Of a stretch of 64,000 bases of DNA, positions 12,960 to 63,815 are shown piece after piece. The stretch is taken from positions 95,125 through 159,124 of the forward strand of contig WSYH01000843.1 of NCBI GenBank assembly GCA_036426205.1, read 5' to 3'. The notes below the pieces were generated by a model, which saw only the letters and a program-made list of their open reading frames with translations, did not search any database and had not been told where the DNA came from. This stretch comes from Ascaphus truei. Its lineage: Eukaryota > Chordata > Amphibia > Anura > Ascaphidae. Position 1 is the first letter of the stretch. Every line of letters begins with the position of its first letter. Made by a program: the position numbers and the translations under genes.

Positions 12960-14130
12960 TCGGGGCGACATTTCAGCTGTGAGAGGCGGCTCTCTCAGAG
13001 CCGCTCTCTCTTGCAGCAGAACGAAATGAATCGCCGGTTCAGGCCTTTTCAGAGGCTCGATGCTCTCGCTGGCAGCAACTCGCCCGTTTTGGGAATTTTG
13101 CTATCACTGGTAATAGAGCCTTTCTAAATACCGTGATAGCAACACCCCAAAAAAAAGGCATTTTAAATGCCGTGGCGATAATTTTTATCAACCCTCTCTG
13201 AATGAGGCCCTTTGTCTTTTTAATAAAAAAAGTTTTAAAAAAGCCTTATTTATTTTTTACCAAGCTTTATTTGCACATAATAAAAACATGTAGTATAGTT
13301 ATTATAGTAAATAAGTAGAAAATCTATGAAATTCATGAATATAATGTGCAAGTAATAAAAGTGACAAGAAAAAAGTTGAAAATTGTATTTGCGTAAATAA
13401 GTGCTTTTAGAGAGAAAAAACAGATTTCAATTGAGATCTTCTGGCTGTATCTTGTACAGTTTAATTCAGTGAAAAATAGTGATATCTTTTCTTATTAAAA
13501 ATAGAGAAGACATGAATGAGTTAACACTGTAAACAGTGCTATATGGAATGCGCATGCATGTTCTATGCAACCTGTACGAGGAAAACAGTTCAATTAATTT
13601 ACCCTAATTATCCATGAAAGTTGTATGAGTTGATCAAAGGGGTTTGCTGCATGTAGTTGTTGGAGTCGACCAAGTAGTTGAGGTGGTGGTTGGTCCGTAC
13701 TGGTACTGGGGCTGGATGTAATCGGGTGGGGGACGGTACTCGGTTGGGATCAGATATTGAAGATCTATTCAATTGCTTTATCCTTTGGAAGTTGCCAACA
13801 TGGAACATATCTATTGAAGGCAACTGAAGTTTGTCCAGTACCCGCCCTTCAAGCCAGGGTGCACTATTCAAATAAAGCAATCATTATTGCTTTAATCGTT
13901 TCAAATAGAATTCTTCCACACTTTTTTGTTATCATAGAATTGGTACTTGATAGCGTTAAATTAATAGATCTCAGAGAGGGTTACCTCTTATGCAAACATT
14001 CCTAAATGGCAAAATATTTCAGAGTCACATAGCTATATTGAGGCCAAAACAGCGATGCCTCATTACTGCAATTTTCCCTGTCATTTAAAATGGTCTGAGA
14101 AAAACTACAGTGTAGTATTAAAGTGATTAA
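12960..14130. other. Unassigned intergenic sequence
   Basis: A GC-richer tract at 12,960-13,110 is followed by AT-rich sequence. No motif-bearing open frame, RNA gene or repeat boundary was recognised. Confidence 0.3.
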
Positions 14131-15034: not shown

Positions 15035-15828
15035 CTGGGCAGAGGATTGGGACTCCTACAACCCACACATGCTCTATTGGGTCCCAGTACTCACATGGGA
15101 ACTCAGGGGCATGGAACATTGGGATGCTCGGTGGGGTCGCGGTGGCCTCAACTTCTGGCTGCCATCTTAATAATAATATGGATTTCTAGACATTATAGGC
15201 ATTTCTAGTGACATTGTTACAATTAAGAAGTATATTGTACAGAAATACATGGGATTTGCCATTGTAGACAACGCATGAGTGGGTACTGGCAAAGATATAC
15301 AGTGCGCCCTCTGCCTGACACATACTGAATTGCAATTACATAAATAAACTGCACAGATAATTATGCCGGTTGATCACAGCCAGGACGCAGAAGAGTTGCG
15401 GTGAATAAAGAGTTTACGCGGCTGTAATCTCGCAAAGGGGTACTGAAAACAGTAATTCTGGATAATCTTAATAGTGGCAAAAAAAATCAATTTGTTATTA
15501 CAACAATTGCATAATCATTATTACTGCAGTGTTGTCTGTTACTCTAACTAACCAACCAAGCATAGCAACCAAAAGGAATGTGTGGTCCAGAATAATATCC
15601 ATAAATTAGGCATAAGAGTTGTGTTAAATATGTTGGCATTAAAGTGGAGTAATTCTGTGGGAAAATGATGCATCAATTAATAATAAAGACAACGAAAGTC
15701 CCATTCTAAGTAATAATATACCCTATTTCCTCGATTCTAAGACGCCATTGATTCTAAGATGCACAATTGATTTAATAAAACATTTTGGGGAAAAAACACA
15801 CTATATTAAATGTGCAGAATTTTTTTCT
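15035..15828. other. Unassigned, with a CGATTCTAAGACGC repeat motif
   Basis: No gene seen. At 15,727-15,765 the words CCTCGATTCTAAGACGC and GATTCTAAGATGC occur, and CATCGATTGTAAGACGC occurs at 17,191-17,207 on the other side of the microsatellite. The microsatellite may have expanded inside one dispersed repeat. Confidence 0.35.
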
Positions 15829-21333: not shown

Positions 21334-21680
21334 CTGCACCGACACACTTTATTCGAGCAAATACCCAGTATGTACCTGGCAGATACCTGGAATGCGCCGC
21401 TCCTCACCTCTAACAAGCCCCGTTGCGTTTGCCTTCCCAGCCTGGGTTCATGCCTGGCTGATGGTTGGCTGATCTGTTAAATGATAATGATTAGGATTTA
21501 ATAGGCTGCAATGCTTCGCGTGTCTACCAGATGGCATAAATTCATGAATTGTAATGCAGTATATATATATATACTGTGCAGTATTGCAGCCAGCGGGAAT
21601 AAAATGCTTCAATCCCTGCCTGGAAAATAACCCAATGCACTCGGGCAGAAAACAGTCACAAACCTCAATACACCCGGGTG
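21334..21680 (-). mobile_element. MITE/transposon end with TA target (copy D)
   Basis: Starts at 21,334 after TA with CTGCACCGACACACTTTATT. It runs through the same subterminal sequence as the other MITEs in reverse orientation and continues past the central (TA)n into the second half, which breaks off near 21,680 before the CAGTGG-type end. It may be a truncated MITE. Alternatively it may be the left end of the larger transposon region that continues at 22,340-22,787 and 43,641 onward, because the spacing from this end to the shared block resembles that in the inner element. Confidence 0.55.
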
Positions 21681-28337: not shown

Positions 28338-28533
28338 CTGCTGCGGCAGACGTTATTCTAACAAATCACCGGTTTGTCCCTGGCTTGTTCCTGGAGCATG
28401 CCGCGTTCCCAGCCACGGGTCATGCCCGGCTGATGCGAGGTTGATGTGTTAAATTGATAATGGTTCAGGATTTAATAGGCTGCAATGCTTCGCGTGTCCG
28501 CCAGATGGCATAAATTCATGAATTGTAATGCAG

Positions 28534-45611: not shown

Positions 45612-46207
45612 TGTTACGTACTTACCGAGAGCCTGGGGTCCAGAGCCGGGAGGTATGTAGGAATCCGCAAACTGGGGTGAAACGGTCAAGAAGTCCAGGA
45701 GGTCAGGATACAAGGCAGGAGACGAGAGTGGATCCACAGCCAGGCCGGTTCGGTACGCAAGGGGATCACTAAAGTGACAAAGAGACAAAGAGACAGAAAC
45801 TGAGGTAGGCACGAGAAGATAGGAAACGCTGGGGAAACCAGCATAGCCGCTACAGCGCGGCAAAGGCGAAGTCTGCCAGGAACAAGGAAAGCAGCGCCGG
45901 GGCTGCTATGCAAGAAGGCCTTGGGATGCCTGGGACTGGAATCAGGATACAAGGCACAAGGAGCCCAGCAGGCCTAACACGGAGTCTGTGACATGCACAG
46001 TTACTTGCAAGTTGGATTGCAAAATCTATGTCCAGCAACTTCCTGAGGGCGGGGCAGGCACTAAATAGCACAAGAGGCCAATTAGGCCAGAGCTGCACAG
46101 GAGGCAGCAAGAGGCAGGTAATTGCAGAGGCAGGGAATAGATTGTCTGAAACCTGCAAAGCTCCGGATGGAAGGGCTCCAGCCAAAGCCAGGAGTGGATT
46201 CCTGACA
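45612..46207 (-). repeat. LTR, 3' copy (596 bp)
   Basis: TGTTACGTAC... to ...CCTGACA on the plus strand. It lacks about 180 bases and a second internal duplicate that are present in the 5' LTR. Confidence 0.8.
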
Positions 46208-48625: not shown

Positions 48626-49525
48626 TGTAACGTACGTGCTTGCCACAAACAAGGAGGGACCCCGAAACTGAGGTGATATGGGTAACAAACTGCACCCACA
48701 GCTACGGGGACATGCCTGAAAATTGGAAAATAGGCGTCTGGAACCATCTGGGAGTATAAGATAAAGTAAGATATTCGCCAGACGAGAAGGGAGATTCCAG
48801 AAGATAGGTGGTACCGAGAGCCTGGGGTCCAGAGCCGGGAGGTATGTAGGAATCCGCAAACCGGGGTGAAAGGGTCGAGAAGTCCAGGAGGTCAGGATAC
48901 AAGGCAGGAGACGAGAGTGGATCCACAGCCAGGCCTGTTCGGTATGCAAGGGGATCACTAAAGAGACAAAGAGACAAAGAGACAGAAACTGAGGTAGGCA
49001 CGAGAAGATAGGAAACGCTGGGGAAACCAGCGTAGCCGCTACAGTGCGGCAAAGGCGAAGTCTGCCAGGAACAAGGAAAGCAGCGCCGGGGCTGCTATGC
49101 AAGAAGGCCTTGGGATGCGACAGGAACTGAGGCAGACACGCCACAGGAAACGCTGGGGAAACCAGCGTAGCCGCTACAGCGCGGCGAAGTCTGCCAAGAA
49201 CAAGGAAAGCAGCGCCGGGGACGCTATGCAAGAAGGCCTTGGGATGCCGGGGACTGGAAGCAGGATACAAGGCACAAGGAGCCCAGCAGGCCAAACACGG
49301 AGTCTGTGACATGCACAGTTACTTGCAAGTTGGATTGCAAAATCTATGTCCAGCAACTTCCTGAGGGCGGGGCAGGCACTAAATAGAACAGGAGGCCAAT
49401 TAGGCCAGAGCTGCACAGGAGGCAGCAGGAGGCAGGTAATTGCAGAGGCAGGGAATAAATTGTCTGAAACCTGCAAAGCTCCGGATGGAAGGGCTCCAGC
49501 CAAAGCCAGGAGTGAATTCCTGACA
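48626..49525 (-). repeat. LTR, 5' copy (900 bp)
   Basis: Same ends as the 3' copy (TGTAACGTAC... to ...CCTGACA on the plus strand). It contains an extra 180 bases near 48,640-48,810 and a duplicated internal block: GGAAACGCTGGGGAAACCAG occurs at about 49,010 and 49,146. Confidence 0.8.
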
Positions 49526-50702
49526 CCTCAACAGGCCATTTATAGTGTCTCTCACAGCTCTCCTAATTGTTGGGGTAACACGGAAATAATGTTCCACTTC
49601 TTTCAAAATGGTCTTTCTTAAATTTGCTGGCAGAGTCTTCTTTCTTTTATTTCCTTCATAATTTACATTGTGGGTCCAACGGCTGTACATCTAAAAACTG
49701 ACGTGGTGTTTAAATATTGACAGGGCAAATTTATGGGCTGCACGAGCACTTCCAGTCTTGTATTTCTCCTGGGTGTGCTGGGTCAGGTCAGTCAAGATGA
49801 TGTTCGGCAGCGTTACAATCCTGGGTGCTGGTGTACTTCTGGCAGCGGGCGAGGGTAGGCGGTCTGGGAGGATGCTTAACATGTCGTGGCCTTACCGGAG
49901 TTGTCATCTCATCCTCAAAGGCATACTGGTACAGACGATCTTGTGACAGATGGGGTGAGCGTGTGGGGCTTGGTGATGGAAACGTGAAGGTCACATCATG
50001 TAGATCATCCTCCTGCTCCTGCGTCAGACATACTGGTACAGGGACAGGAACTCGCAGGAAAGAATACATCCCCACAATCTTCCTTTACATCTTCTCCATG
50101 TTCCTTCCCATCTTCTCCATGTTCCTTTCCATTTTATCCATGCGCATATCCATACTCAACATGGTCTCCAAAAGAAGATCAACCTTTTGATCCATGCTGT
50201 AGACATCTGTGTAGGTGGGTGGTGGAGGAGGTGACCAGGGGGTGGCCAGGAGAACAGTGTCGAGGATGGTTGGTGGAGCTGGTGACCAGGGGTTGGCAGG
50301 AGAACAGCCTCAATGATGGGTTGTGGAGCAGGTCGGCAGGGGGTTGACAGGAGAGCAGCCTCAATGATGGGTTGTGGAGCAGGTCGGCAGGGGGTTGACA
50401 GGAGAACAGTAGCGTCGAGGATGGGTTGTGGAGCAGGTGAGCGGTGGGGGTGCAAGGAGAGGATCGGGACTCCACTTGACTTGCACTGTGCTAAGGGCAC
50501 CAAATTTCTTCTTCACAAAATAAGGCCCAGGGGTCTTAACCTTTGGACTCTTCGGAACATTTTCTTTATTCTGCTTTGGTTTTCACTTAGTTTTTGGCTG
50601 GGAAACAGCTTCCGCCTTTCACTTGGCCGGCAAACCAGAAGCAAGCTGGTTCCTGCATCGTAAAATCTGGGGCAATCCAAGGAAACAGAAGGACGAATGC
50701 AC

Positions 50703-50983
50703 AATGCAGTATCTGGACAAGAGCAAGTTCAGATAGAGATCAGTGTGTGAGAGTCTATGCAATTTGTCTCACCTTTTATTTGAAATTTTTTGCGGGCATG
50801 GACACGAAGTGCAGGTGTTAAAAGTGGGCGTACTGTGTACTAATCCTGTCGAGTGACATTGAGGCACATTAAATTAAAGTATAAATACACCATCCATTTT
50901 GTGTATTCAATGCACATTCAATACACATTGAATTCACATCGAATTGCTCTGTGTGTGCTCGCATTTGTTTTCTAACAGCAGCG
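50703..50983. promoter_or_regulatory. Bidirectional promoter between BEN-like and transposase genes
   Basis: 280 bases separate the two divergent starts. A TATA box (GTATAAATAC, 50,879-50,888) faces the transposase, about 100 bases before its ATG. The BEN-side segment TCAGATAGAGATCAGTGTG / CAGTATCTGGACAAGAGCAA is conserved upstream of the inner BEN gene (55,615-55,660), pointing to a functional 5' UTR or promoter. TATA recognition is by eye. Confidence 0.5.
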
Positions 50984-52053
50984 ATGCCAAAGAAAAGGAT
51001 TTAAAAAGATCTCAGCTTGAGAATAAAGGATATGTACCAGAATGGACACTGCATTTTACAGATCCAACGCTGGTAACTTGATTCGGGCTTCGTTTTAGCT
51101 AAAAGCACTGTTAGTTATCATGCGCTTGGGAAGGCCAAAAATATCAAAAGAAATCCGACCGTCACTACAGTACAGTAGTACTTCTTGTCCTCCATACTGT
51201 AACTCTAACAACATCTTGTACTGTTCTGTATGCCTGTGTTTGCCTGTGTGTTCTGTATGCCTGTGGTAACTAATAATCCTGCATTTACTGTACACACACC
51301 CACAAAGCATCAACAGTACATTACTGTATGTCCCCAGTTTTTATGCCAGTGATTGGGTGGTACAGTAGGAGTGACTGAGTGTGTGACAGTGCAGTCTATT
51401 GGGATGCTTTATTTGAGGGAGGGATGCTTAATTTGCCTACTATAACAAATTGTTCTGATTTTCTTTACACTGTAGGGCGACAACACTTCTGGTGGACCAA
51501 ATAAGTGAACAGAATGATGAGACATGTGCCACAAGGGTAAATAATGCACTAGAGGCAATTCACAAAATAAAAGCATCTGTGACCAGCATCAGGCAGATGA
51601 GATAGAAATTGGGATGGAAATATGGGCGTCTTAAGTAAGTACTGTACAATACTGCTGCGGCCCCTTTTATTCTAAAACATCACCGCATTTTTCCTGTTTA
51701 TTTTCCGATTGCGACGCACTTTACCGGGTGCATGCCGCATTCATGTTGCGTTCTCAGCCGCGGGTCATGCGCGGTTGATGCGCTGTTCATGCGTTTATTG
51801 AGAATGGTTCGGATTTAATAGGTTGAAATTCTTCGCGTGTCCGCCAGATGGCAGATATTCATGAATTGTAATGCGCATGCGCTTCAGTAATGTGTCGACT
51901 TGCAGGTGTTTCGTTTAAAAAAGATACCACAGTGTGCTTTTGTAAATTGGCCTTGAGACTGAAGGAAGAGGTTACAATAATGTATCAATTTAGGCTTTTC
52001 ATATTAAATAAAGACAAAGACCAGTTTCTGTTATTCTCCAGAGACCCGCCACC

Positions 52054-52668
52054 ATGAGTGTTCAAGTGCAGCCCGTTTTCCAAAAACCCGACAGAACTTA
52101 CGCGTATTTGATATGGGCCGCGATTAATGCAACAGATGATAAGATGGCAACAGTTGTTCAAATGTATCAGTATTTTATCGAAAACTATAACTTTGACAAA
52201 TTTTCGCCAGCTCCTCATGTGTGGAAGCGTGCAATAAGGAAAAGGTTATGTACCGATCCATGTTTTTATCGTATTGATCCTGAATTTATTGGAGGGTATT
52301 GGTGTGTATCACCGGCTTTTTCCTGTATCTATGATCATGCAGACGGCAAAAGGCGAAAGGTTGTGTTAAAACCAACTAAGAAACGACAGTCGGTGGCAAG
52401 CAATGCGCCAGCACCAGCACCGGCTTCCAATGACGGTCCCACCATCAGTGACAACCCTCGCTGTCTGTCCACGCACGGACACCTGCAGCCTGAGCCGGAT
52501 TTCGCGTGCAGTTTGGAGCAAGCTTGCATGTTCCTAAGCGATTTCCAGCCTAATCAGCTGACTACAGGTGTAGTAGTCCCGCTGCCAACTGTCAACGTGT
52601 ATGATCAAGAATACTGGACTGGCAGTGGCCTGGTGCCGGCGCCAGCTGATTGGGAAATTCTATGGTGA
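52054..52668 (+). CDS. Forkhead (winged-helix) domain protein carried by a transposon
   Basis: 204 codons, intact, with the start in a perfect Kozak context (GCCACCATGA). Residues about 11-85 read as a forkhead domain: KPDRTYAYLIWAAINATDDK (helix 1), TVVQMYQYFIENYNFDKF (helix 2 and turn), HVWKRAIRKRLCTDPCFYRI (recognition helix, in the position of the family W-x-x-x-x-R-x-x-L-x-x-x-x-C-F pattern), then GGYWCVSP (wing). The recognition helix lacks the usual N-S-I-R-H-N residues, so its DNA specificity should differ. The rest is basic (KRRKVVLKPTKKR) then Ala/Pro-rich, acidic and hydrophobic, ending DWEILW. A GTGAGT donor overlaps the stop. Possibly derived from FOXR/FOXN-type genes; family placement uncertain. 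Confidence 0.7.
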   Translation: MSVQVQPVFQKPDRTYAYLIWAAINATDDKMATVVQMYQYFIENYNFDKFSPAPHVWKRAIRKRLCTDPCFYRIDPEFIGGYWCVSPAFSCIYDHADGKRRKVVLKPTKKRQSVASNAPAPAPASNDGPTISDNPRCLSTHGHLQPEPDFACSLEQACMFLSDFQPNQLTTGVVVPLPTVNVYDQEYWTGSGLVPAPADWEILW

Positions 52669-54157
52669 GTATTGTTGCAGTATTATTTTCTGTTTTTTTT
52701 TTTATTTTGACATTATCAATATTGGTGCGATTCAAAAGTCAAGCGATTCTCCTGTAAGCAATATCATTGGCTGAGCGGCTTCTACAGTACTGTACTGCAG
52801 ATACAGTACTGGACAATTGGTGGAACGCTAGGCGCATGCGCATTGGAACCTTCTTGAAACGCATATGCGTGTCATTACATCGACGGTAGGCGCATTCGTA
52901 TGTGAACAGGAGATGCCCCCCGAGAAAATTATTGGTGGGAATGACTGGGAACTTCTTTAGGGGACTGACCATTAACGTAAAACTTTTCTTTTTGTTTTTC
53001 CTCAGAAAAGAAAACGGCTAGTGGAGGGATTTCGATGGATAATATCGCTTTGTGTAACAATGCCTGCACATTGCTGAATCGGATTTAAAAAACCACCTAC
53101 CGGAGTCTACAGTTTAGTGGCCATTGTTATTGATTAGGATAGAATACCTGAAACAGTATGCTGATGTTTTCCGAACGTACAGTATACAATACTTTTTTAT
53201 ATACAGTATACTGTGTAATAAACCCCAAAAAATAAAAAGTATGCATTTATTCTACATGTATTACAGTACATACAGTATGTGTCTTCTATACAGTGCCAGT
53301 ACATACAGTCCAGTACAGTATGTGTCTTCTATTTTTTTTAATACTCTTGTACAGTATCAAAGGAGCCAATGGAACAATTTAAAACAAATCAACATGTTCT
53401 TTTATTGGTGGAGTAAGTACAAAAACATTTATTTACAAATACTGTACAATGTAAAAACATTTTATGTGCACAGCAATTCAAAACATCAACAGGTGTATGG
53501 TTTACTGCTAGTGAAAACATTTATTTACAGAAAGTAAAAACATTTACAGTCAGTCAGTATCGTTTACAGTCACATGTTATAAAAAAAATTCTTATTCATA
53601 AAATATACAAAACGCAACATCTCCTTTATTAAAGAAAGGCAAGTCAAAACATTTACAGTGGGATGGTGTGCAAAACAGTCAGTCAGGCCTGCACCACTGC
53701 AGTCCTCGAGGGCAGCAAACAGGCCCAGTTTTCAGGGTGACCTTTGAAAACCGGGCCTGTTTGCGGCCCTCGGGGACTGGAATTGTGCATGTCTTGTGTA
53801 CAGTAAATACAAAATGTTTTTTATTAATACAAGTTAAAACACACAACATCTCCTTTATTTAAGTACAGCAGGTCAAAACATGTACAGTACAGCACAACAG
53901 TATGGTCATACCTGTTATTAAAAAAAAAATCTTTATTCATAAAATACAAAACAAAACATCTCCTATATTTAAGTACAGCAGGTCAAAACATTTACAGTGG
54001 GATGGTGTGCAGAACAGTAAGTCAGGCCTGCACCACTCCAGTCCTCGAGGGCAGCAAACACGCCTGGTTTTCAGGGTAACCTTTGAAAACCGGGGCTGTT
54101 TGCGGCCCTCGGGGACTGGAACAAAATATTTACAAAACATTTTCAACAGTTGAACAC
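52669..54157. other. Spacer with duplicated hAT-like palindrome
   Basis: Contains the block shared with 22,690-22,787 (52,985-53,060), many CAGTAC/GTACTG words, and two tandem copies (about 345 bp apart) of a segment. In each, CAGTCCTCGAGGGCAGCAAA and its complement TTTGCGGCCCTCGGGGACTG form a 100-bp foldback (53,699-53,780 and 54,038-54,120). These ends are like small hAT-type MITEs. No gene. Confidence 0.45.
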
Positions 54158-55613
54158 TCACTCAAATGCGTACCCCACCAGTTTGTCGTTCCATGGCCGA
54201 TGCCTTGCAAGGCGCAAAACGCCATTAATGCAGTCTCGAACGCCTTTCATTACAGGATCTGTAATTGAAAAATAGCGCCACAATTCATCCATTATGGTCA
54301 TTCTTAAATTGTCAGGAAGCGCCTTTTTAGGCAATTTCCTACGTAGTTCACTTTAAAGGCCCAGTCGCAGTACATCAAGTAGGACACATGGTGCTTAAAA
54401 AGTAACAAGGCATACCTGTGGGGTACACCAGCACTCATCACCCTATACTTCTACCTGAGTGCCGATGGCAGATCGCGCAGGATGATGTCGGGCACCGTAT
54501 CGATGCGAGCGAATGTAGGTCTTCTTTGAGCGGGAGTCCTTGTGGCGGCGGGCGAGGGTAGGTTGTCTGGGAGGAAGCTTTCCTCCTGTCTTGTTCCCCG
54601 TGTTGTCTCCTGGCATGGTCTTGACGGGGTTGTCATGTCCTCCTCAACGGCATACATGTACACAAAATCTTCTTGGGTAGGAGGAGCGCTTGGTGATGGA
54701 AGGTGGTCGATGCTCCCATTCATCACATCCATGCCACCCTCCTGGTCCGGCGTGGAGGAACCAGGGGCATGAACACCGAGCAAATGATGTATCCCCGCTA
54801 TGTCAGCCTCTATCTTCTCCATCCGTCGATCCATCCGTTGATCCATATTTAGCATCCGTTGCTCCATATTTAGCATGGTCTCCAGAAGCAGATCTATCTT
54901 TGCCAGCACAATAGAGTTCCCAGGGATATCCACACTTATCCCATTCAGCATCCGGTCTAACTAGCTGCTTCTTGTGCATGTCGTGCTGTGGACATCTGGG
55001 TGGATGGGTGCTATGGAGGATGAGATGGGGGTTCCATGGAGAGAAGCGGCAGCATTGTCGAAGAAGGGTGGAGGAGGTGACCTGTGGATATCCGGAAGAG
55101 GAGAAGCGGCAGCGTCTTCGAAGAGGGATGGAGAAATTGACCTTTGGATTTCCGGGTGAGAAGCGGCAGAGTCGTCTAAGCGCAAAGGAGAAAGTGACCC
55201 GTGGATTTCAGAGGCACCAGCGGCAGCGGCGTTGAATAGAACTGGCGAAGATGGCCTGTGGGTTTCCGAGAGGGCGGCGGCAGCATCGAGGATGAGTAGT
55301 GGAGAAGACGGGCTGAAGATTTCAGGGACAGCGGTGGCGGAAGTGGTCTGCGGGTTCGATGGGTTGGCTGCCATTTGTTTTGCGTGGAGTGTACAACACC
55401 GTATTTCTTCTTGACATAATAAGGCTGACGTCTATTAAATCCATTAGCCTTTGGGGTCAGCAGAAGGTTTTCTTTATTGACCTTAGCCTGTCGCTTTGGC
55501 CTTGGTGTGGAAACGGCTGCCACTTTTCGCTTTTTCTGCATGACAGGCACGGCAGAGGCGAGTGGGTTCCTGCGTCCGTAGAATCGGGGTTGATCCATGG
55601 AAGCAGATGGCAT
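54158..55613 (-). pseudogene. BEN-domain-like transposon gene (inner copy)
   Basis: ATG at 55,611-55,613. N-terminus MPSASMDQPRFYGRRNPLAS, then basic patches (QKKRKV, RPKRQAKVNKEN), then about six Ser/Pro repeats of 19-21 residues (SEIHGSLSPLRLDDSAAS-type, 55,010-55,330). A methionine-rich coiled coil (LLLETMLNMEQRMLNMDQRM, about 54,810-54,890) and a linker follow. The C-terminal domain has YALLLFKHHVSYLMYCDW, KALPDNLRMTIMDEL and MKGVRDCINGVLRLARH, ending at TGA 54,158-54,160. Frames shift two or three times (near 55,375, 54,960 and 54,335), by small indels. Same architecture as the outer gene. I infer a BEN domain from the L-F, L-P-x-x-L and C-I-N-x-x-L-R pattern, and a nuclear DNA- or chromatin-binding role. 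Confidence 0.55.
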
Positions 55614-55723
55614 AATGCAGTATCTGGACAAGGGCAAGTTCAGATAAAGATCATCGAGTGGTGGGCTATGCAAAGTGTGTAACCTTTTAAGCATGGCGAC
55701 GAGGTACAGGTGTTGAAAGTGGG

Positions 55724-55875
55724 CGAAACCCTCCAAAAAAGATTTGTTTGCGAAAGGCATACTGAGTTTTTGGAACTATCTACTCACCATGGAACGCTGC
55801 AATAAATATATTGACCATATTGCGACTGTGTTGCCCATTGTGATCGCGTGTAATGGGCAAGCATCAGGAAAGTAG
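55724..55875 (+). pseudogene. Transposase exon 5 remnant of the inner element
   Basis: Matches outer 59,729-59,880: KKD/ICLRKAYxVFWNYLLTM-like sequence, then RCNKYIDHIATVLPIVIACN. Upstream of 55,724 the sequence is instead the BEN-side promoter (outer 50,800-50,830, TGAAAGTGGGCG). The element thus lost everything between 50,831 and 59,728 equivalents, by a deletion at a short GTGG homology. A last-exon equivalent is seen near 56,345-56,400 (TCTTTTCAGGAAAAAATGA followed by a G-run). Confidence 0.7.
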
Positions 55876-58529
55876 TACTGTACTGTAGATTTGTAAGTTT
55901 TTTAAGTACAGTATGACACAGGTAAGTATGGCACAGATTTTGTCTTTCCAAATAGTAGAGTATACAGTAGCTCCAGTATAGACTAGTTTGACAGTACTAA
56001 CTGCATACACAATGCCATAATGCCATAATACAGTATGCACCTACAGTACAGTAACTGCTCAATTTTTTTCTTTCCAGAGAGAGCAGCACCAGCCATCTGG
56101 TTACATAGTATTTAACAGTAGTCAGAGTATACAGTAGTTCCAGTATTGACTAGTTTGACAGTACTAACTGCCTACTGTAGTCCAATGTGGAGTAGCTATA
56201 CAATACACAATGCCATGCAGTAATAAAGTACTGTATGCACCTAACTGCTCAATTTTTCTCTTTCCAGAGAAAGCAGCACCAGCCATCTACTGTAGTACTA
56301 CATATTACACAATGCCATAATATAGTACGCACATAACTGCACTCATTTTTTGTTTTCTTGTCTTTTCAGGAAAAAATGATGGACTGGGGGAGAGGGGGGG
56401 TGTTGTGTACAGTATAATCTATTTGTACAGTCAAGTGTACAGTATATAAACAGCAGTAATGATGTGCACAAAACCTCTCCTCTCTCAATGAACTACTGTA
56501 CTGTACACAGAATGAGGAAGAAGAGAAAGACGGAAAAAATGATATTACTATATATATATTATAAATTATATATTATTAAATAATATTATTATAAATGTGC
56601 ATTATTCATTTTTATCAATGTTTTATAAATGTTTTATAAATGTTTATCCAATTTCAATCTACCAGAAGAACTTATTGTAACCATGTATTATTTGTTTTAC
56701 TCTGTGCCCAGGACATACTTGAAAATGAGAGGTAACTCTCAATGTATTACTTCCTGGTAAAATATTTTATAAATAAATAAATAATAAAGACTGCATTATG
56801 TATTATTCGTGATTATTTTTATATTTGTATTTTTTTGTTCCTGATAAAATAAAATAAATATTTATTTACATTCCTGCTAATCATAATCATTGACAACCCC
56901 CTCCCCCCACACCTACAGTACACCAAAGAAAAAGAATGAATGACAAAACAACATGAATCATGTTTATTTTAACTCTCAATTCTCACAATACTGTGCAAGT
57001 CAGATTTACTTTTCAAATTCGAGAAGGGATTTTCCAACGTCTTACCGTAAACAAAGCCTCAAAGGGTTGGGGGGGTTGGGTGAGTCATGCGCATTAATAA
57101 GCTAGCTCCCATCTCAAAGAGGATTACACTCAGGTGCAGTGAGGTGATTGACGCTCGGCTAGGGACGGATTAAAAACACAATGACCTGCTTCAGAAAATT
57201 AATGACTCTGTGGGGGTGTCTGTCGATAAGAGTTTCAATACCTTGAGCGAGCCTTGTGTGTGTGCGTTGGGGAGGGGGCTGCATGAAGGATTAGCTGTGC
57301 AGCAGTTCAAAGAAATTACATACAGTACAGTAATTTAAAAAGGCAGTTCATCATAATAATTTGATCCCTACACCCCCAAATATAGTACATAAAAAGCACA
57401 CAAATCAACCATGTGCAGACAAACGCACAGGGTCGCAGTCAAAAGCTACAGCACAGATTGAATAGCATAATATCAAGATTGTTTTTGCAGGCTTGTGGAG
57501 AAAATGACAATTAAAAAATTATAATAACATTTTTTTTTTTGGTCACTTACTCAAGCAAGCAGTGGTGGGTGAAATTACAGGCGCATGCGCAGTAATCAAC
57601 TAGCTCCCATCCCAAAGAGGATTACACGCAGGCTCAGTGAGGTGACTGACGCTCGGCTATGGACGGATTAAAAACACAATGTTAAGCTTCAGAAAATTAA
57701 TGACTCTGTGGATGGGGGGGGGGGGTAGTTTGAGTCATGCGCAGTAATCAGCTAGCTCCCATCTCAAAGAGGATTACACGCAGGCACAGTGAGGTGATTG
57801 ACGCTCGGCTATGGACGGATTAAGAACACAATGTCAAGCTTCAGAAATTTAATGACTCTGTGGAGTTTCAAATCCTTGAGCGAGCCTTGTGTGTGTTCGT
57901 GGGGGAGGGGGCTACTGGGTACAGCTGCATAAAGTTCAAAGATAATGACATACTTTAATTTCAAAAGGCAGTTAATCATAATAATATGATCCCTACACCC
58001 CCAAATACAGTACGTAAAAAGCACACAAATCAACCATGTGCAGTCAAACGCACAGGATCGCAGTCAAAAGCTACAGCACAGATTGAGTATCGTAATACAG
58101 TATTGAGATGGTTTTTGCAGGCTTGTGGAAAAAAAAAATTAGAATATTTTTTTTTTTTTTTGGTCTCTCACTCAAGCAGGCAGTGGTGGGCGAAGTTACA
58201 GGCGCATGCGCAGTAATCACCTGCTGTCAAGCATGAATGTGATTGAAACCAGACACACATTCAAAGGAATGGTGTGGGAGAGATGTACTGCATTGTAGAG
58301 AAGATAAGAAGTTGAAATACCCTGCAGTGCAGTTAATTATCCTGAGCGAGGGGAGAGTGCCGTATATGCCAAATGTGACACTGTTACAGTACTGTACACG
58401 CCTATCGTTTCAACAATTTTCAAATGAGACATACTGTACAGTACAGCACTGCAAATGCATGTATAATTTAAATATGCAAATTTCAATTACTGCGCGCGCA
58501 CCAACAGACTGTGTACTGATGTAGATTGA
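55876..58529. other. Right subterminal region with a triplicated segment
   Basis: AT-rich, with many CAGTA words and AATAAA-rich sequence near 56,760-56,880. From about 57,070 a 130-200 base segment (GTCATGCGCA..., TAGCTCCCATCTCAAAGAGG, GTGACTGACGCTCGGCTATG) is present three times (57,075, 57,585 and 57,732). A longer part (GAGCGAGCCTTGTGTGTG ... CAACCATGTGCAG) is present twice (57,243-57,420 and 57,877-58,040). No gene recognised. Confidence 0.55.
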
Positions 58530-59974
58530 ACCGCGAAGGTATAGACTTCCAAGACAACAGTTCGCAAACCCCCACTGAGTTTTTACACGGCATTGCAGTA
58601 TTGCAGACAGCAAGAATAAAATGTCTAATATCACGAGCGCTAAAATAACGCAATTCACTCCGGACAAAAAATTAAACGCACCTGACCGAGATTATCTGAG
58701 AGCCGCGGATCTAGCCGATTTAGGTTAAAGGCAGCCGCCACTGTACCACCCACCTCCCTCCCTCTCCAGACTTGTGATTTCTTGTTTAGCCCTCTATTTT
58801 CATGTTAGGCTCCCTCCTAGCCTACTGTACAATAGGGTTGGACAACTGTACTATATGTAATAATGTCCATACTGTATACAGTATTGTTTCAATACATTAC
58901 TTAGTTTTCTATACTGTACAGTAGATGTCTTTGACTTATTTTTTCATTTTTTGAGTGCTGGGAACCATAATACTGTATCTCCAGTATTTAGTACCTCTAA
59001 CATTATTCCTTGTCATTATAGACAGTATCCTATGATAAGGGAAGCCAACAAAATAAAAAGAGTGGACCAGGCATGGGCATGGATCGTTAGTGGCGAGGCT
59101 TTCCAGGATGTCATCTTTACTGACGAGACAACTGTAGCGCTTGAGAGATTTGCCCATTTTGCATTCTACAAAAAAGGACGCCTATCTCTGAAGCCGCGTC
59201 CCAAGCACCCAGTGAAAATGCATGTGTGGTGTGCCATCTCTAGACAAGGACCAAGATGCATCATTATCTTTGAGGGTAAAATAATGCACAAATACACATG
59301 ATGTGCCTGTGGCCTTGCCTCATGCACTGGACAGCTGTACGGTACAGTATTTTGCACCCTAATGTTACTGTACATTTTTCTTTTCTTGTTTCCAGGAATC
59401 ATGAATAAAGCGTTCTTCCAAGATCACATAATTACACATGTTGTTGAATACATTAGGAATGATTTCCCATCTGGTCACCGGTTCTTCGAAAGACAATGAT
59501 CTGAAACACAACGCGTCAACAGCTCACATTCTTGCCAGCAGTATCAACTGGGTTAAGACGCCAGCGGAGTAAGTTGGGTAACCATTTCTCATTGTTTTAC
59601 ACAGTTTATATCTCCTCACAGTAAGTAATTAACTTTTTTTCTCCCCTCCTACTGTATTCCAGATCACCAGATTTTAATCCCATCGAAATGGTATGGCATG
59701 AGTTGAAGGATTATATCAGAAAAGTGTGGAAACCGTCAAAAAAAGATGAATTGAAGAAAGGGATACTGCATTTCTGGAACAATATACTCACCGTAGCCAG
59801 ATGTAATAAATATATTGATCATATTGTGACTGTGTTGCCTATTGTTATACAACGTAATGACCAGGCCTCGGGAAAGAATAAGGCAGGTAAGATATAAATA
59901 CTCTTAAGTATGGCACTCAAACTAACCCGTCTGCATTTATTGTTTTCTTTTCATTTTCAGAACTGCCGCAATGA

Positions 59975-63176: not shown

Positions 63177-63815
63177 TCCTACGTTATTCCAAGATCACCA
63201 GATTTTAATTCCCATCGAAATGGTTTATGCATGAGTTGAAGGCTCTATACAGGAAAAGTGTGCGAAAACCGTCATCAAAAAAAAGATGAATTGAAGAAAG
63301 GGATACTGCATTTCTGGAACAATATACTCACCGTAGCCAGATGTAATAAATATATTGATCATATTGTGACTGTGTTGCCTATTGTTATACAACGTAATGA
63401 CCAGGCCTCGGGAAAGTAATAAGGCACAGGTAAGTATAATACTCTTAAGTATGGCACTCAAACTAACCATGTCTGCATTTATTGTTTCTTTTCATTTTCA
63501 GAACTGCCGCAATGAAAAAAGGAAGGGGGGGGTGTGTGTGTAAGATAATAGTACATTGTTCATGTAGAAACCAGCCTGTATCTTACACAAACCCCCCTCT
63601 CCCACCCTCTCTCAGTAGTTACTGTACAGTATAGAAATTCGTTTTTGCCCTTCCAAAAATTTGTTTTAAAAAAAATCTTTTGAAATACTGTATTTTTAGA
63701 GCTGCAGCCCCCTCTCTCTCCAATCTCCCCCCCATCTCGCAATGCCATAACGAAGAGAAAGACAAGAGCTACTGTACTGTATTTTTGTACTGTATTATGC
63801 ACTAGCTCATAAACC
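63177..63815 (+). pseudogene. Second copy of transposase exon 5, exon 6 and flank
   Basis: Repeats 59,648-60,272 about 3.53 kb further on. The first 110 bases carry many one-base insertions (AATTCCCATCGAAATGGTTT versus AATCCCATCGAAATGG), which destroys the acceptor and frame. From about 63,280 the match is almost exact (GATGAATTGAAGAAAGGGAT). No other exons are repeated, so it is not a functional gene. Confidence 0.8.

Follow-up and report, generated by a model that had tools for sequence, protein, structure and literature searches.

A forkhead-domain gene lies inside a Tc1-like transposon of the frog Ascaphus truei, between ends that are shared by copies elsewhere in the genome. It appears somewhat probable to us that a Tc1-like lineage acquired a forkhead DNA-binding domain and kept it as an accessory gene, whose product is predicted to bind the element's own DNA. 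The gene was found in a 64,000-nucleotide stretch of contig WSYH01000843.1 (the window), and positions below are those of the window.

The open reading frame (ORF) runs from 52054 to 52668 on the forward strand; its 204 codons form an intact frame, and both the forkhead profile and a genome search pick it out. The original prediction, made from the DNA letters, gave it a textbook Kozak start. The context of the ATG, GCCACCATGA, is indeed strong, but position +4 is A rather than G. A forkhead identity had also been proposed for the N-terminal part of the protein, and the profile check was positive: the translation matches the Pfam forkhead family (PF00250) with E 1.6e-12 and 47.8 bits (cut-off 27). 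The match covers residues 10–89 (52081–52320, forward strand) and profile positions 1–83 of 88, and the domain is also seen in comparison with the sequences of solved structures. All 36 sequences scanned, chosen out of 52, match the same family. Up to E 1, 44 solved-structure sequences are matched, 43 of them forkhead proteins by name or entry. PDB chain 5a5u_B (eIF3 subunit B) also appears among the forkhead matches, over about 115 residues, probably as an oddity of the record.

The best solved relative is FOXL2, at E 1.6e-8 with the single protein as query and E 3.4e-11 with a profile of the copies; the order of the scores (L2, A, P, C, N, G) points to no clear Fox class for the transposon protein. 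Judged by its profile, the window protein is a divergent forkhead-domain protein, not a Fox factor that has the DNA specificity of that family. It has the forkhead domain in common with host Fox proteins such as FOXL2, FOXA, FOXC, FOXP and FOXN; unlike them, it is multicopy in transposons and falls in a clan of its own in the tree described below. When the ORF was searched against protein databases (60 candidates scored), the sole match was a hypothetical protein of A. truei (P0001). At the best genomic match to P0001, the ORF is identical to it over the last 148 of its 201 residues, and the deposited N-terminus stands in place of roughly the first half of the forkhead domain.

The recognition helix had been described as altered. 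The change is real and common to both subfamilies of the element (A, which includes the window copy, and B), with two of the three base-contact residues replaced. In Fox proteins, the bases are contacted by the Asn, Arg and His of WxNSIRH (Asn317, Arg320 and His321 in FOXN1), and these core contacts are described as strictly conserved (PMC7062188). The corresponding string in the transposon protein is WKRAIRK: the Asn of the host Fox helix is replaced by Arg59 and the His by Lys63, and Arg62 is retained. The helix covers approximately residues 54–67 (including W57, K58, R59, A60, I61, R62 and K63), with limits taken from low-confidence models. Two domain alignments were made, one (A1) from 18 chosen loci or protein rows plus the window and the other (A2) from the window and 35 of 51 distinct open sequences. 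Since A2 had left out three sequences with helix changes (L006, L015 and L022), the helix residues were counted afresh in the full set of 52 distinct open A and B sequences. A60, R62 and L65 occur in 52 of 52, W57, I61 and K63 in 51 each and R59 in 48, the remainder being three His and one Cys. Because the first three positions are invariant and R59 and K63 nearly uniform, the aligned sequences argue that the forkhead framework has been retained and the specificity positions changed.

Structure prediction was of low confidence. The AlphaFold2 models of the full protein and of residues 1–112 have pLDDT values of 35.6 and 42.9, probably because the alignments hold near-identical copies. The order of three helices and two strands in the low-confidence model fits a winged helix. 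In a Foldseek search with this model, ranks 1–22 were all forkhead; none of the 39 matches was significant (best E 0.5), and in view of this and of the model's low confidence the ranking was set aside as proof of the fold.

The ORF had been placed about 400 bases inside the left end of a TA-flanked 7.1-kb element, and more copies between the same ends were expected; both claims were borne out by a genome-wide search and by alignment of the window with twenty fetched 10-kb stretches (21 sequences in all). Shared sequence in the window extends over 7.1 kb, from 51650 to 58745, with TA at both junctions (51650–51651 and 58744–58745) and the forkhead ATG 404 bp inside the left TA. The left end (51650–51671, forward strand) consists of TA and the TIR-like CTGCTGCGGCCCCTTTTATT; the right end (58724–58745, reverse strand) closes with GGCAGCCGCCACTG and TA and is an imperfect inverted match to the left. 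By eye, the terminal inverted repeats are short and imperfect (left CTGCTGCGGCCCC; right, as the reverse complement, CAGTGGCGGCCGCC), and the ends are absent from a repeat finder's 25 longest of 93 inverted pairs. The left junction begins TACTG in 18 of the 21 sequences (it is altered in L016 and truncated in L014 and L026), and the right-end CTGTA falls inside the fetched stretch in eight. Among the 21 sequences, TA is seen at 18 left junctions and 8 right ones, and the sequences that have the element ends in common differ in their flanks.

The genome searched comprises 2.82 Gb and includes the window. With the forkhead ORF as query, a first look gave 17,517 candidates; the 150 that were scored match without exception, at 84–100% identity, 90 of them free of stops and 60 with a stop (by eye). 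With P0001 as query, there were 14,264 candidates, of which 150 were scored and again all match; these brought out subfamily B. In one of its copies the last transposase exon is present, 93% identical, and the left end is similar; the consensus ORFs of A and B are both open and align over their length.

Between its ends, the element measures 7.7 kb in L018, 7.7 kb in L016 and 8.6 kb in L009, nested insertions included; L014 and L026, which are without the left end, are of similar size. Downstream of the forkhead ORF and on the same strand (+) is a Tc1-like transposase gene split by introns into about five exons. Exon 3 is present in 14 of the 20 fetched copies and the last exon in 13. The joined exons match the Pfam family DDE_3 with E 5.7e-16, and a search of solved structures at E 0.001 gave a single relative, Sleeping Beauty SB100X (E 2.5e-14), to which the catalytic residues align. 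The assignment to a Tc1/mariner type is upheld by this transposase between the ends of the fetched copies, the window copy itself having only a remnant of the last exon. The joins up to exon 4 are backed by the annotated Ascaphus proteins P0004 and P0006, and the last join by an intron-free Xenopus relative, P0005, which is continuous across the place of the join (both by eye). Among the best 120 of 417 matches, the closest named relatives outside Ascaphus are P0005 of Xenopus laevis (54%) and P0008 of Latimeria (52%). Like transposons of the Sleeping Beauty/Tc1 group, the frog element has a DDE_3 transposase, TA junctions and short, imperfect inverted ends. Unlike them, it has three genes, a length of about 7.7–8.6 kb and a transposase in about five exons; the spacing from the second D to the E is 32 residues, compared with 34 in Sleeping Beauty (by eye).

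The genes besides the transposase are the forkhead ORF and ORF2, whereas a single gene is usual (though not defining) in Tc1/mariner elements. ORF2 is on the minus strand, divergent from the transposase start; it has a coiled-coil-like stretch, MLNMEQRMLNMDQRMDRRMEKIEADIAGI (by eye), and encodes about 530 amino acids once pieces of two copies are combined. It matched no Pfam family up to E 5. A BEN domain at its C-terminus, an idea formed by eye, was rejected: there was no Pfam match up to E 5, and the best PDB match (E 0.25) is unrelated. A protein search with ORF2, which scored the 7,996 candidates with the most words in common, found two Ascaphus proteins, and gave no locus tag next to P0001 among those candidates. 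In P0002 and P0003, annotated proteins of A. truei, pieces of ORF2 are fused to other sequence; these are either gene models that absorbed transposon exons or cases of exonisation.

The window copy is an internal-deletion derivative from which most of the transposase gene is gone. Its ORF2 (54160–55725, reverse strand; ORF reading and copy comparison) contains a frameshift and an in-frame stop, in agreement with the observation that the forkhead ORF is open while its neighbours are frameshifted; the inference of selection drawn from that difference does not stand. The start of ORF2 is lost at the deletion junction, which aligns to 55715–55725, and a remnant of the last transposase exon occupies 55726–55872 (forward strand; alignment). 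Compared with L014, about 1.6 kb is lost between ORF2 and this exon, so the window copy is not able to move alone. A repeat search also found two direct repeats of about 0.5 kb within 57069–58222 on the forward strand (57069–57601 and 57719–58222, 82.6%).

The forkhead element is inserted within a second, related Tc1-like element, and the transposase DNA of the two is about 73% identical. The exon 2 region of this outer sister (51433–51649, forward strand; 74.5% to L012 1759–1977) is interrupted by the forkhead element. Exons 3 (59026–59277) to 5 (59667–59876) were located at 59026–59876 on the forward strand by profile and alignment, and a diverged ORF2 at 49784–50717 on the reverse strand by sequence comparison. 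Transposase dN/dS between the two elements is 0.20 in exon 3 and 0.10 in exon 5, values that show strong purifying selection on this gene. The window's sister element, a single copy that carries other insertions, showed no forkhead, and because of these insertions we do not assert that the sister lacks one. Comparison by eye of 150 genome places of the sister transposase (those listed of 8,977 candidates) with the places of the forkhead ORF gave no close pair, which says little.

Other repeats are found nearby. The last exon of the sister transposase occurs twice (59667–59876 and 63198–63416, about 3.5 kb apart), with a G-rich, minisatellite-like stretch between the two copies. LTR-like direct repeats of about 0.6–0.7 kb (45623–46207 and 48812–49525, 94–97% in two pieces) flank about 2.6 kb and adjoin the sister's diverged ORF2. 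Small elements at 28397–28531 (+), 21429–21557 (+), 2310–2182 (−), 12340–12214 (−) and 4928–4847 (−) have subterminal sequence around CTTCGCGTGTC...CCAGATGGCA...ATTCATGAATTGTAATGC in common with the forkhead element. The small element at 28 kb, with a left end very similar to that of the forkhead element, may be mobilised in trans.

Candidate binding sites were looked for by motif search. The 5' leader, the presumed promoter (51652–52053, forward strand), has a GCGCATGCGC palindrome at 51873, and a piece of the leader (51742–51874) recurs in small elements elsewhere in the window. The palindrome is present at three further places in the outer parts of the window copy, 52832, 57581 and 58202, where none is expected; the last two lie one in each of the right-side direct repeats. 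It occurs at least once in seven of eight copies (about zero expected) and is missing from L009. These palindromes are candidate sites for the forkhead protein, or they may simply be host promoter elements; GCGCATGCGC resembles a site of host NRF1. The forkhead motif RTAAAYA is about twofold enriched over shuffles in seven of eight copies. We rejected this enrichment as evidence of binding: L019 shows no enrichment, and the motifs in the window are mostly in A/T-rich sequence.

Further forkhead types occur elsewhere in the genome. In a forkhead profile search, 150 of 12,894 candidates were scored; 21 places at 108–141 bits resemble host Fox genes, and the other 129, at 73–94 bits, score above the window ORF (48). 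Ten of the former and eight of the latter were read, and the eight resolve into four further types, C to F. Types C and E are repeats, each with two unlinked copies that share 1.0 and 1.4 kb, respectively, at about 95%; type D was seen once and type F twice, and it is for C and E that repeat nature is evidenced. Some rows of the further types contain stops (L093, L100). The 5' ends of the C and E repeats differ, and in the one copy of each that was read there was no transposase of the kind described above within 1.4 kb downstream. Type E (L097/L101 and L098/L102) has a 225-codon open frame, with a minisatellite-like ACTGGCTCAACC array upstream in the repeat. The helix differs from type to type: D has WKNSIRHNLS, E has WKNSIRRTLS and F has WKNTVRHNLS or WKNTIRHNLS, and two of the three rows of C have WKNSIIHNLS. 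The window also holds a decayed forkhead relic of C/D type with inner stops (13832–14043, reverse strand; tblastn E 0.004–0.02), and a piece of the C-repeat leader lies about 1.3 kb upstream of it (15288–15347, reverse strand).

A tree built from 26 rows unites the 12 of transposon type in a single clan, apart from 14 Fox rows, with support 100/100. The Fox rows comprise 10 host sequences and four from the PDB and sample the Fox classes in part; the tree program marked the FOXP3 branch as long and cautioned that within each of the two groups long branches meet. One origin of the transposon-type forkheads is likely from this tree, and it is not proven, because of the long-branch warnings and the incomplete sampling of Fox classes.

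Comparison of copies bears on selection and age. The 62 sequences of subfamily A diverge from their consensus by 2.6, 2.7 and 4.3% at codon positions 1, 2 and 3. N/S is 0.59 overall and 0.90 without CpG sites, and is alike on internal (0.63) and terminal (0.67) branches. The frame is intact in 40 of the 62 (the window plus 61 of 68 loci, seven being duplicates of other loci or of the window) and not in 22, a count that is weak as a signal of selection, since protein similarity guided the choice of copies and so favours open frames. The same choice of copies weakens the signal from indels, of which 8 of 11 in coding sequence are multiples of three, compared with 20 of 108 in the flanks. Between the A and B consensus sequences dN/dS is 0.75 (bootstrap 0.40–1.77); these were compared as a protein alignment, so that their indels are multiples of three by construction.

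Of the 39 between-lineage pairs, 23 can be measured and give dN/dS of 0.17–0.57, the estimate being rough for several with dS > 1; the other 16 are saturated. The least saturated pairs, C with D, give 0.24–0.34 (bootstrap 0.10–0.60). The measurable pairs of A/B with C give 0.17–0.37, those with C93 and C95 being 0.29–0.37 (bootstrap 0.17–0.67). With bootstraps on unsaturated replicates only, the upper bound is below 1 in 22 of the 23 measurable pairs, and the D94–F100 interval reaches 1, as do the within-lineage intervals for A–B, C93–C95, C95–C96 and F99–F100. We read this as purifying selection on the forkhead lineages and free decay of inserted copies. A comparison of dN/dS among copies had been proposed as a check, and it turned out near neutral within the family, but below 1 between forkhead lineages. 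Given the near-neutral N/S in the family, the window's open frame reflects mostly a young insertion, about 3% from the consensus; of the earlier suggestion of recent activity or selection, youth stands and selection on this copy does not. With N/S near neutral and 0.75 between A and B, current function of the window family's protein is not established.

These data can be read in several ways. In the account we favour, a Tc1-like lineage in the frog gained a forkhead domain and kept it beside its transposase. The protein would be a DNA-binding winged-helix protein that has given up the host forkhead site and instead targets DNA of the element itself, in subterminal regions or promoters; once bound, it would help transposase assembly or activate transcription of the element. 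Copies without transposase, such as the window's, would be mobilised in trans. Alternatively, the gene could be a passenger, a fragment of a host forkhead gene that multiplied with the element and has no role, its open frames belonging to young copies. The near-neutral N/S in the family and the A–B value agree with this, as do the replacement of two contact residues, which decay could bring about, and the frames that are not intact (22 of 62) or contain a stop (60 of 150, by eye), in samples that both favour open frames. The C–D values and those below 1 in the other measurable pairs speak against it, however, as do founders of A and B that both had open frames and a helix change that is a uniform replacement rather than scattered damage. 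We regard a mere passenger as unlikely.

The protein might instead act on host chromatin or gene control rather than on transposon ends, for example as a pioneer-like factor through which element promoters stay open in the germ line. In their fold, forkhead domains are similar to linker histones, and among the 36 sequences scanned two match linker histone weakly (best E 0.05), which may be chance; the changed recognition helix, on the other hand, argues for a changed sequence target, and we consider an anti-silencing or chromatin role rather improbable. That the forkhead ORF belongs to a dispersed host multigene family outside the element could be supposed from the other forkhead types, which sit in repeats of unnamed type. 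This is already contradicted by the left junction that 18 of 21 sequences with different flanks have in common, some 400 bp ahead of the ATG, and by the transposase downstream in 14 of 20 copies, and hardly any likelihood is left to it. The account of a captured, retained accessory gene also has a wider form, for which we see about even chances: a single ancient capture, from which five or more lineages descend that are kept by purifying selection, several of them with rewritten helices and each serving its own element as a sequence-specific accessory factor.

Extra genes in transposons have precedents. Tc1/mariner elements typically encode transposase only (PMC12242761). The Oxytricha TBE elements, which are Tc1/mariner, have two extra ORFs under purifying selection that are proposed to encode accessory factors, and the same paper calls them surprising for this class. 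The frog element likewise carries two extra ORFs. TBE differs, according to that text, in being from a ciliate and in what the ORFs encode, a zinc-finger/kinase protein and a 22-kDa protein with no predicted domains rather than a forkhead. Turmoil-1 of C. elegans is similar in that host coding sequence is found inside a transposable element, by transduplication of coding fragments; these are an rsp-2 RRM and a cpg-3 fragment located in inverted repeats (PMC2572040), whereas the frog element has a full accessory gene for a DNA-binding protein. In the accessible open-licence PMC literature, no account of a transposon with a forkhead gene came to light; in the available text of PMC9341512, forkhead appears solely in the reference list. 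Accessory ORFs and host fragments in transposons are already known, and hence the forkhead gene would be the new element here.

A high-copy vertebrate Tc1/mariner family with a forkhead gene, one whose DNA-reading helix has also been rewritten, would indicate that this simple class of transposon can recruit a host regulator domain. Some amphibian forkhead-like gene models may be transposon proteins, P0001 having been deposited as a hypothetical protein. The element is open to test by transposition and binding assays, and the forkhead lineages offer a comparative set for the evolution of forkhead specificity. If the wider reading of one capture and many lineages is true, no family of Fox-like proteins carried by transposons would precede them, and they would form a natural series of forkhead domains whose DNA specificities are new.
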